Assembly (NCBI RefSeq): GCF_900215605.1 | Contig: NZ_OBEL01000003.1 | Span: 186,001 to 250,000 of the forward strand | From: Cohaesibacter gelatinilyticus | Lineage (GTDB): Bacteria > Pseudomonadota > Alphaproteobacteria > Rhizobiales > Cohaesibacteraceae | Direction: 5' to 3' | DNA: 64,000 nt | Part shown: positions 12,863-21,168 of the stretch, piece by piece | How the letters are laid out: the number at the start of each line of letters is the position of its first letter | Numbering within the stretch: position 1 is the stretch's first letter | Notes under the pieces: generated by a model | What the model was told of the DNA's origin: nothing | Seen by the model: the letters and a program-made list of their open reading frames with translations, nothing else | The model's database searches: none | Program-made: the position numbers and the translations under genes

Positions 12863-12878
12863 CGTTTCACGTGAATCA
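12863..12878. promoter_or_regulatory. parS-like site 1 (GANTC hybrid)
   Basis: CGTTTCACGTGAATCA, two mismatches to TGTTTCACGTGAAACA. The A-to-T change at position 14 creates GAATC (12873-12877). It lies in the holA-parB convergent gap. Confidence 0.7.
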
Positions 12879-12945
12879 ATATTCTAAATTTCCAAACAGA
12901 AACGTGCACAAACCCCTGATTTTCAAATATTAAAACAACCCAAAT

Positions 12946-12975
12946 AAAAAGGCCGGACATATGCCCGGCCTTTTT
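12946..12975 (-). terminator. Terminator after parB
   Basis: AAAAAGGCCGG / CCGGCCTTTTT hairpin with poly-A and poly-T flanks, so it can act on both strands. It lies 27 bp past the parB stop. Confidence 0.85.
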
Positions 12976-13001
12976 ATTCACATCTGTGATTAATTTTCAA
13001 A

Positions 13002-13877
13002 TCAGCCAGTACGCTCTAAAAGAGCAATGATCGCATCCAACTGTTCCAGAGATTTGTACTGGATCTTCAGCTCGCCACCTTTTTTCTTAGGCATCACTCG
13101 AACATTCCAACCCAAGTGATCTGTCAGACGTTTTTCCAACGCAACCGTATTTGCGTCTTTTTCCTTTTTCACGCGAGGTTCAGCTTGCTCGGCCTGTTTT
13201 TCTTGACCAGCTTTCTCAGCATCACGAACAGTCATTCCATCTTCAACAACACGGCGTGCAAGCTCTTCCGGATTCTCTGCAGTAATCAAAGCACGAGCAT
13301 GACCAGCGGTAAGCTGACCTGACTTCAGATATTCCTTCACGCTATCAGGCAACTTCAACAAGCGCAGTGTGTTGGCCACATGAGAGCGGCTTTTACCGAT
13401 GACTTCTGCAAGTTCAGCCTGGGTATAGTCGAACTGCTGGATCAATTGATCATACCCCAGAGCCTCTTCCAGAGCATTCAGATCCGCACGCTGTACATTC
13501 TCGATGATTGCCAGCTCAAGCGCTTCTTTGTCATCCACATCATGAATAAGAACAGGAACCTCATGAAGCCCTGCCCCTTGTGCAGCTCGCCAACGGCGTT
13601 CACCAGCAATAATCTCATAAGCATCCGTCTGATCTTTGACCTCACGAACAAGAATAGGCTGCATGATGCCTTTCTCTTTCACCGAGCGGGTCAGATCTTC
13701 AAGATCTGCTTCAACAAAATCCTGACGCGGGTTACGAGGATTGGGTCGCAAAAATTCAATTGGAATTCGACGTTGAGACCGTGCACGCTCAACCGCTTCC
13801 ACTTCATTGTCCATATCACCGATCAGAGCTGCCAATCCGCGCCCTAACCGTTTTCCCTCTGCCGCTTTTTTCGCCAT
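13002..13877 (-). CDS. parB: Chromosome-partitioning protein ParB
   Basis: 291-aa CTP-dependent DNA clamp that loads at parS. The N-terminal KRLGRGLAALIGD is the ParA-contact segment, GERRWRA (residues 92-98) is the conserved CTP-binding motif, and the HTH that reads parS is near 152-172 (QAELAEVIGKSRSHVANTLRLLKLP). The C-terminal dimer domain ends in LEQLDAIIALLERTG. It is transcribed after parA, leftward away from the proposed origin. Its targets lie within the window. Confidence 0.97.
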   Translation of the reverse strand: MAKKAAEGKRLGRGLAALIGDMDNEVEAVERARSQRRIPIEFLRPNPRNPRQDFVEADLEDLTRSVKEKGIMQPILVREVKDQTDAYEIIAGERRWRAAQGAGLHEVPVLIHDVDDKEALELAIIENVQRADLNALEEALGYDQLIQQFDYTQAELAEVIGKSRSHVANTLRLLKLPDSVKEYLKSGQLTAGHARALITAENPEELARRVVEDGMTVRDAEKAGQEKQAEQAEPRVKKEKDANTVALEKRLTDHLGWNVRVMPKKKGGELKIQYKSLEQLDAIIALLERTG

Positions 13878-13957
13878 TTTTTCTTCCGCATCCGAATCGT
13901 TTGGGTTTGCCTCAACCCCACATCACTAACTTCTGTTCCAGCCTGTATCAGAAACGA

Positions 13958-18862: not shown

Positions 18863-19163
18863 ATATTTCGCCTATCTGCCTTTCGGGCGTCTTACTCTCA
18901 GCCTTCGGGAATAGTTTCATTCATTCCGTAAACGACTCGATTCTCCTGTCCTTCCCTGCAGCATTCAAAGTTGCGCAAAAAATAGACGCGAAAAGACATG
19001 GAAAATATGGATTGTTTTACAAGCGACTCGATCATCAGGGAAAACTGACAATCAAAAGAAAAGCCGCCAGATACCTAAATCTGGCGGCTTTGATAGCATA
19101 GTCAAAATTCATGGCAAGAAAAAAGTAGGTCGGAGCCTCACGTTGGTCTCACCGGAATTTTCC
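18863..19163. other. Intergenic gap between rho and mnmE
   Basis: About 300 bp with no credible gene. It holds the rho terminator at its right end and three GANTC sites (GACTC at 18934 and GATTC at 18939, adjacent, and GACTC at 19025). The mnmE promoter is expected here; I see no confident -35/-10 pair. Confidence 0.5.
19060..19091 (-). terminator. Terminator after rho
   Basis: Perfect 13-bp stem AAAGCCGCCAGAT / ATCTGGCGGCTTT with a 6-base loop, followed on the minus strand by a T-rich run. Confidence 0.85.
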
Positions 19164-20429
19164 TTACGTATTCATATTGTCGAAGAAATCTGAATTCGTC
19201 TTGGTAGAGCGTAATTTGTCGAGAAGGAACTCGATCGCATCCACATTGCTCATGGCACCAAGAATACGACGCAGAACAAAGACCTTCTGAAGCTCTTTGC
19301 GATCCACCATCAACTCTTCTTTACGTGTGCCTGATTTCAGAATATCCATGGCAGGGAAGATACGCTTGTCGGACACTTTACGGTCCAGAACAATCTCCGC
19401 ATTACCCGTGCCTTTGAATTCCTCAAAGATCACCTCGTCCATTCGGGAACCCGTATCGATCAATGCGGTCGCGATGATCGTCAGGGAACCGCCTTCTTCG
19501 ATGTTACGAGCTGCACCGAAGAAACGCTTTGGACGTTGCAGTGCATTTGCGTCAACACCACCGGTCAAAACCTTACCCGAAGACGGTATGACGGTGTTAT
19601 AGGCACGACCAAGACGCGTAATGGAATCGAGCAAGATCACGACATCGCGACCATGTTCAACCAAGCGTTTGGCTTTTTCGATTACCATTTCGGCAACCTG
19701 CACGTGACGAGAGGCAGGTTCATCAAAAGTTGATGAAACCACTTCACCATTCACGGTACGCTTCATGTCAGTCACCTCTTCCGGGCGCTCGTCAATCAGC
19801 AACACAATCAAACAGCTGTCTGGATGATTGGCCGTAATGGATTTGGCAATATTCTGCAACAGCACGGTTTTACCGGTGCGTGGAGGTGCCACGATCAAGG
19901 CACGCTGACCTTTACCCAAAGGTGCGACCAGATCGATAACTCGACTGGACATATCCTTGGATGTCGGATCAACCGATTCCAGCTGGAACCGCTCATCTGG
20001 ATGCAAAGGCGTCAGATTATCAAAATGCACCTTGTGGCGCGCTTTTTCAGGATCTTCAAAATTGACGCAATTGACCTTCAGCAGGGCAAAATAACGTTCA
20101 CCTTCCTTGGGGCTACGAATATGCCCTTCAACGGTATCACCGGTCCGTAGTGAAAACCGTCTAATTTGAGAGGGCGAAATATAGATATCATCCGGTCCAG
20201 GCAGATAGTTTGCATCAGGAGAGCGCAAAAAGCCGAAGCCATCTTGCAAAACTTCCACGACACCTTCACCGATAATATCGGTATCTTGTTCTGCCAATTG
20301 TTTCAGGATAGCGAATAGCAGCTCCTGCTTGCGCAGGGTACTTGCATTTTCAACCTCGAGCTCCTCAGCGAAATTGAGAAGTTCGGTGGGTGATTTTTGT
20401 TTGAGTTCTTGTAATTTCATTTCGCGCAT
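19164..20429 (-). CDS. rho: Transcription termination factor Rho
   Basis: 421-aa hexameric RNA helicase. The N-terminal [18 protein letters not shown] and the cold-shock-like RNA-binding domain ([22 protein letters not shown]) precede Walker A PPRTGKT at 182-188. I choose 20429 because family members in this order begin with [10 protein letters not shown]; a 61-residue upstream extension is open but unrelated. The 255-bp leader upstream is unusually long, as expected if Rho regulates itself. Confidence 0.96.
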
Positions 20430-20684
20430 AGCGAAAGTCTCGTTAAGCCAAAGCAACCATGGGAAAATTGTGAGGTAGGGATAGAACAGAACGCTATTGT
20501 TTGTTGTTGCGGTCTGTAAACCCTTGAAGGCCGGCGGGCCAAGCAGCCTAATGATTCGCCAATTCAAGAGTTGGCGGACCATAGCTGTTGATTCTGAAAT
20601 TGCCAAGCCCAAAATGCAAGAAAGCGACTTCTGTCTAAGAAATCGCTTTCACACACAAAATCTCAATCCGATAATGATCAAAAA
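20430..20684 (-). promoter_or_regulatory. Long rho leader region
   Basis: Gene-free leader between hemJ and rho. It contains a hairpin (CGCCAA / TTGGCG, near 20555-20578) and two GATTC sites. In E. coli rho is controlled by Rho-dependent attenuation in its leader; the length here is compatible, but no specific element can be proven. Confidence 0.4.
20620..20650 (-). terminator. Possible weak terminator after hemJ
   Basis: Stem GAAAGCGA / TCGCTTTC about 35 bp past the hemJ stop, with only a weak T run. It may instead be an mRNA processing hairpin. Confidence 0.4.
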
Positions 20685-21119
20685 TTAGAATGGCTTGACC
20701 ACCGCAAGAATAACAATGCCCAACATCAGCAGGGTCGGTACTTCGTTCAGTATCCGGTAAAATTTGTGACCTTTCTCATTTTTATCAGCAGCAAAAACTT
20801 TCACGCATTTTGCCAAATACATGTGATAGGCGGTCATTCCACCAACCAGCAAGAATTTGATATGCAGCCAAATTGCATCCGGCTCCCAGATTCCAAAATG
20901 AAAGGCAAGCGTTAGTCCCAAAATCCAGGCGATGATCATGGAAGGATTCATGATGGCTTTGAGCAAACGTCGTTCCATGATTTTGAACGTTTCCGATTTG
21001 TCGCTGCCAGCTTCCGTGTCTGCGTGATAAACAAACAAACGCGGCAGATAGAAGATTCCTGCCATCCAGGTGATGATCGAAATGATATGAAGGGCTTTCG
21101 CCCAGAGATAAAAATCCAT
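20685..21119 (-). CDS. hemJ: Protoporphyrinogen IX oxidase HemJ
   Basis: 144-aa membrane enzyme that oxidises protoporphyrinogen IX in haem synthesis. It has four hydrophobic segments, the N-terminal histidine H11 (WAKALHIISIITWMAGIFYLPR) and the conserved KAIMNPSMI segment. An AGAGGA site precedes the ATG at 21119; 28 upstream residues in frame are rejected. It lies beside hemE, so two haem-pathway genes share a leftward unit at the origin. Confidence 0.93.
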   Translation of the reverse strand: MDFYLWAKALHIISIITWMAGIFYLPRLFVYHADTEAGSDKSETFKIMERRLLKAIMNPSMIIAWILGLTLAFHFGIWEPDAIWLHIKFLLVGGMTAYHMYLAKCVKVFAADKNEKGHKFYRILNEVPTLLMLGIVILAVVKPF

Positions 21120-21152
21120 CGTGGTCCTCTGATAGAAAATCCATCCTTGCAA

Positions 21153-21168
21153 TATTTCACGTGAATCC
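21153..21168. promoter_or_regulatory. Degenerate parS-like site 7 (GANTC hybrid)
   Basis: TATTTCACGTGAATCC keeps the TTTCACGTGAA core with three mismatches. The A14-to-T change creates GAATC (21163-21167). It lies in the hemE-hemJ gap, about 1.2 kb from the proposed origin. Confidence 0.55.

Follow-up and report, generated by a model that had tools for sequence, protein, structure and literature searches.

We analysed a 64,000-nucleotide stretch of the Cohaesibacter gelatinilyticus genome (contig NZ_OBEL01000003.1, forward-strand positions 186,001 to 250,000; hereafter, the window) and found that five of its seven parS sites, the 16-bp palindromes bound by the partition protein ParB, carry a one-letter change that turns one half-site into GANTC, the target of the DNA methylase CcrM. 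Comparison of genomes suggests that this change is kept by selection, and the best reading of the data is that such composite sites form an order-specific class of CcrM-methylatable parS that stands alongside plain parS in Hyphomicrobiales. At the level of sequence, the comparisons establish that composite sites exist and recur, that each carries a single GANTC and that conservation extends to GANTC as such, beyond any one of its bases.

parS sites in the window and in Cohaesibacter

Seven matches to the parS palindrome TGTTTCACGTGAAACA, each within one to three mismatches, lie on the + strand and span positions 12863-21168 of the window, against a shuffle expectation of 0.22 at up to three mismatches (largest count, 2 in 100 shuffles). 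Numbering positions from 1 along the 16-mer, sites 3 (GGATTCACGTGAAACA, 17364-17379), 4 (GGATTCACGTGAAACA again, 17412-17427) and 5 (AGATTCACGTGAAACA, 17472-17487) have A for T at position 3 (T3A), which creates GANTC at 17365-17369, 17413-17417 and 17473-17477, respectively. Site 1 (CGTTTCACGTGAATCA, 12863-12878, between holA and parB) and site 7 (TATTTCACGTGAATCC, 21153-21168) carry the mirror change, A14T, with GANTC at 12873-12877 and 21163-21167; in site 7 a second change, G2A, leaves the other half non-consensus. Site 2 (GGTTTCACGTGAAACG, 15385-15400, inside rsmG) and site 6 (TGTTTCACGTGAAACT, 17516-17531, adjoining mnmE) have the full consensus core and, in this genome, no GANTC. The preliminary description had listed these seven sites, the GANTC-making change in sites 1, 3, 4, 5 and 7 and its absence from sites 2 and 6, and all of this was confirmed. 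An eighth match, with three mismatches, at position 30393 has no central CACGTG and was discounted as parS.

The window shows strong avoidance of GANTC (101 observed versus 318 expected from shuffles), and the pattern GNTTCACGTGAAAC is found in the whole genome four times with A, twice, palindromic, with T and never with C or G. All of these matches lie inside the window, where they are six of the seven parS sites, site 7 falling outside the pattern. Because GANTC is avoided in the window and the pattern occurs only with A or T, the overlap of GANTC and parS is beyond chance.

The arrangement is stable within the genus. Among 132 parS sites in 18 Cohaesibacter genomes, exactly one half is GANTC in 110, neither half in 22 and both halves in none. 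The 22 GANTC-free sites are the 18 copies of site 6, which has T3 and A14 in every genome, and four copies of the rsmG site, whose counterpart is GATTC in the other 14 genomes. A3 is kept in all 54 copies of sites 3, 4 and 5 (18/18 genomes for each), with the flanking DNA scrambled on both sides, for which reason recent duplication of one site was rejected as their source. The equivalent of site 1, a GTTTCACGTGAATC site more than 4 kb to the parB side of the mnmG start, is present in 17/18 genomes, and the core of site 7 in 3/18, the source genome counted. When changes at five orthologous sites were placed on a protein tree, 27 fell at positions 1/16, a single one at position 3 (in the rsmG site) and none at position 14. 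Each site holds its own state in the genus, and A3 is thus not interchangeable with T3 in the manner of a neutral variant.

Composite sites across Hyphomicrobiales

Across the order, 51 of 121 genomes contain matches to GATTCACGTGAANC, 124 in all (119 GATTCACGTGAAAC and 5 GATTCACGTGAAGC), none with GANTC in both halves, and its backward control gave a single match. The corresponding pattern for other bases, GSTTCACGTGAANC, gave 24 matches in 18 of the same genomes and 14 in the backward control, so C and G at position 3 hardly rise over background. Facing a consensus partner half, position 3 is A in 119 cases, C in 11 and G in 2; free tolerance of any base at this position is therefore rejected for the order. 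The preliminary description would have been refuted by relatives that have other bases at positions 3/14 and do not favour GANTC; this is not the case within the order, but in the rest of the class we saw no such preference.

Regions around mnmG give the same picture. We compared 113 of them (112 relatives and the window; 8/121 genomes without an MnmG match were left out, several regions ended early at contig ends, and fifteen additional Cohaesibacter genomes and genome G019 were excluded). At up to two mismatches, a level at which three control palindromes gave 4-9 chance matches in the same DNA, they contain 368 parS sites: 186 are consensus and 103 are T3A with a consensus partner, followed by T5C (15), C8T (14), T3C (9), GACTC (7) and G2A (5). 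T3A halves occur in 22/49 families and 32/79 genera, T3C in 9 families and T5C in 12.

Composite sites in these regions share several features: (i) GANTC is never found in both halves, versus 12.7 such sites expected from random placement within genomes, and the other half is consensus in 111/117 composite sites; (ii) a plain site is retained in 43 of the 51 genomes that carry composite ones; (iii) the composite share rises with parS number, from 2/76 sites where a genome has one or two parS to 62/108 where it has five or more; and (iv) 56/117 lie in the mnmG-mnmE gap and 61 elsewhere, of which 15 are inside rsmG and 6 inside mnmE, hemE or mnmG (location outside genes being judged against the aligned parts of ten searched genes only). 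The GANTC half has no fixed orientation, since in the mnmG-mnmE gap it faces mnmG in 26 cases and mnmE in 30. A single half, GTTTCAC or GTTCCAC, is enough for Pseudomonas ParB to bind in vivo (PMC10419367), and one half of Caulobacter parS is described as the better conserved (PMC5815017). It is reasonable to regard the consensus half of a composite site as a putative anchor for ParB.

Does conservation concern A3 or GANTC as a whole? In 239 genomes, GAVTCACGTGAAAC, in which A3 is present, gave 19 matches: 17 are GACTC, spread over 14 genomes and 5 families, and GAATC and GAGTC occur once each (control, 2). GTVTCACGTGAAAC gave 4, all GTCTC (control, 1). GTTTCAC halves outnumber GATTCAC halves in the order regions by about 5 to 1 (540 vs 109). 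The free N of GANTC thus varies mostly where A3 is present, which argues that GANTC itself is kept and not A3 alone. Consistent with this, G2, T5 or C6 is lost in 0/117 T3A halves versus 37/619 halves without T3A (Fisher p 0.002), and position 4 is changed in 7/117 versus 4/619 (p 0.0004), both p values being indicative only because halves share ancestry. GANTC therefore appears to be kept beyond a merely tolerated base. Among 13 of the 14 GACTC genomes that were inspected, 12 have at least one such site near mnmG/mnmE/rsmG or hemE/ppsR, and the piece of genome G396 that carries a GACTC site has two further T3A parS and none of the ten searched genes. The single GAATC and GAGTC matches and the GACTC site of genome G330 may be chance. 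In three genomes of family f186 (L327, L328, L329), a GACTC-type parS lies between hemE and ppsR, in the presumed origin gap.

A number of observations weigh against an order-specific class maintained for methylation. Steps on the tree (114 genomes, G019 included) give a milder excess than counts do: presence of GANTC parS changed 21 times, T5C 10 and T3C 9. Transitions from T to C usually outnumber transversions from T to A; the excess of A, even in tree steps, therefore runs contrary to simple mutation. No composite site is found in the mnmG region of 62/113 order genomes. In genus g285 the rsmG site is GATTC, GACTC (two genomes) and, in one species, GTCTC without GANTC; T4C at this site is a silent Glu-codon change in the reading frame of the window (frame assigned by inspection), and so codon use may drive variation there. 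Outside the order, position 3 is A:C:G in a ratio of 10:13:4 in 285 genomes of the class (controls, 1 and 3), a number over control that means some real variants, without preference for A. A CcrM-like protein is nevertheless found in 11 of 13 checked class genomes (20 carry the variant), and in 10 of these the match reaches at least 60% identity. In 213 phylum genomes outside the class we counted 7 A and 4 C, and four of the A cases belong to one family, f224. Of three f224 loci inspected (L322, L323, L324), one has its T3A parS between mnmG and mnmE and two within 4 kb of mnmE. Three f224 carriers (G503, G514, G539) gave no CcrM homologue at E 1e-20, and G491 only a 31% match. Thus, T3A can exist without CcrM, and CcrM is not always accompanied by T3A. 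Finally, single-half binding is reported as not observed for Bacillus subtilis ParB and as weak in Caulobacter (PMC10419367).

ParB, CcrM and the gene neighbourhood

The ParB residues at the DNA contact, K162, S163, R164 and N169, are invariant in 108 of 109 aligned ParB, from genomes with and without composite sites, the remaining row being gapped. R164 corresponds in the alignment to Caulobacter R173, a residue in contact with the conserved G (PMC7383237). A changed ParB recognition helix as the cause of composite sites was rejected, as the contact residues are alike in both groups of genomes. Residue 154 adjoins a glutamine whose Caulobacter counterpart in the alignment touches DNA; many genomes that carry composite sites have Q, A or N at residue 154 and many that lack them have E, a division that is not strict and is uncorrected for ancestry.

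The RAMA domain found at the C-terminus of CcrM scores over cut-off in 117/121 order genomes and, of 14 named control genomes, only in Caulobacter. The CcrM of the source genome (P0002) has this domain over cut-off and matches the CcrM of PDB 6pbd at E 1.6e-162; its best NCBIfam model, DnaMtaseCcrMCaul, scores 633 bits, under its 830-bit cut-off. In Agrobacterium tumefaciens, of the same order, the GANTC methylation signal is lower near ori1 than near a terminus, which fits late CcrM activity (PMC11514494).

Genes in the window include holA, parB, parA, rsmG, mnmG, mnmE, rho, hemJ, hemE and ppsR. Genes on the - strand include parB (13002-13877, 291 amino acids), parA (13958-14788), rsmG (gidB, 14800-15459), mnmG (gidA, 15474-17330), mnmE (17537-18862) and hemE (21233-22267). 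The parA product matches ParA/MinD-type ATPase families, none over its curated cut-off, and is named from these matches and gene order. Cognate parA and parB thus adjoin the parS sites, as in chromosomal ParABS systems. The hemE-ppsR gap (22268-22732) is presumed to be oriC from the gene order in Caulobacter; a DnaA-box search of this gap gave no match. GANTC avoidance is relaxed over the par region (12001-22300), where observed/expected is 0.5-0.6 even with the parS sites omitted; outside it, the ratio is 0.16-0.32 in three large stretches of the window. Elsewhere, and despite window-wide avoidance, seven GANTC lie within 131 bp (48110-48240) in the space that separates dapB from a DUF3592 gene.

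Proposed mechanism, rival explanations and significance

How could a GANTC half act in a centromere? Plain parS, with GTTTCAC in both halves, would always be competent. Composite parS would nearly always offer ParB one consensus half for anchoring and CcrM the other, GANTC, for methylation. By analogy with A. tumefaciens, and given the position of parS near the presumed origin, composite sites would enter the hemimethylated state early in S phase and leave it only once CcrM becomes active late. ParB nucleation may then vary with the methylation of the half-site, and the number of active parS sites would track replication of the centromere. On these grounds, control of ParB loading by methylation is plausible, and we put the specific proposal that methylation state tunes ParB nucleation at composite parS a little short of an even chance. 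The direction of the effect, whether methylation helps or hinders ParB, is beyond what sequence can tell. More tentatively, composite parS may be built-in replication sensors of the Hyphomicrobiales centromere: CcrM methylation would set ParB loading, so that ParB/SMC loading and segregation would be licensed by fork passage and reset late in the cycle.

Alternatively, T3A may serve ParB alone, as a weaker or kinetically different half-site that defines a second, affinity-tuned parS class, GANTC arising as a by-product of the single step from GTTTC to GATTC. T3A parS in f224, a family without clear CcrM, and the lack of any bias towards A in class genomes outside the order fit this account, as do the near-constant retention of one consensus half in T3A and other variants alike and the different frequencies of ParB residue 154 in genomes with and without composite sites. 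However, tuning of affinity does not sit well with how rarely position 3 is C or G within the order or with the identity of the recognition-helix contact residues in both groups. Also against it, GACTC halves exceed GTCTC fourfold (17 vs 4), though in the order regions T3 halves exceed A3 halves about fivefold, and there is no T3A half in which G2, T5 or C6 is lost. We consider it somewhat unlikely.

A second possibility reverses the arrow: ParB on composite parS would shield GANTC from CcrM, leaving an under-methylated, origin-proximal mark to be read by GcrA or another factor, for example at a promoter in the mnmG-mnmE gap serving the mnmG-rsmG-parA-parB genes. The 56/117 composite sites in this gap are in line with such a role, but the other 61 lie outside it, and the GANTC context preferred by GcrA does not fit GATTCAC. 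GANTC outside parS also exceeds expectation in the gap, as it would in CcrM-regulated promoters, both in genomes with composite parS (38 vs 27.3) and in those without (66 vs 34.3), and it does so in Cohaesibacter (34 observed vs 22.1 expected). A precedent for competition is MucR, which competes with CcrM at certain Caulobacter GANTC (PMC5172544). Overall, shielding seems improbable.

An accident of region or ancestry, in which weaker GANTC avoidance near the origin combines with inheritance of the variant along with the sites, is very improbable: GANTC density at 12-22 kb is indeed raised outside parS too, but in Cohaesibacter A3 is frozen while flanks and positions 1/16 turn over, and regional density differs little between order genomes that have composite parS and those that lack them, for which reason local GANTC enrichment was rejected as a cause.

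Several known systems come close to composite parS. In Dam/SeqA control, hemimethylation of GATC clusters at oriC after replication is a timing signal in the origin region; here the methylase is another one, and the target is a segregation site and not the initiator region. With canonical chromosomal parS (the 16-bp palindrome of ParB/Spo0J) the sites share the core, adjoining parA/parB and a conserved ParB recognition helix, but they differ in that one half is GANTC in most copies and that consensus and composite sites coexist. As at the CcrM-regulated promoters of ftsZ, mipZ, gcrA and repABC, GANTC would be a cell-cycle methylation mark affecting a DNA-protein interaction; the effect described for those promoters is on transcription (PMC3708114, PMC11514494), whereas the GANTC considered here overlaps the very site that serves as centromere. 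In repABC systems GANTC likewise comes close to partition sites, with a GANTC about 500 bp from a parS in pAMI4 and, in A. tumefaciens, an M2 motif near parS with a suggested role in partitioning (PMC9040568, PMC11514494); there it is described near parS, not inside, and the binding protein is RepB, not chromosomal ParB.

We found no description of a parS that overlaps GANTC in the literature searched, whose coverage excluded most subscription papers. Such sites would bear on the timing of segregation relative to replication in alphaproteobacteria. The presence of plain and composite sites in one locus provides an internal control. A cell-cycle methylation mark inside a ParB half-site would, if true, be a direct molecular link of chromosome segregation to replication.

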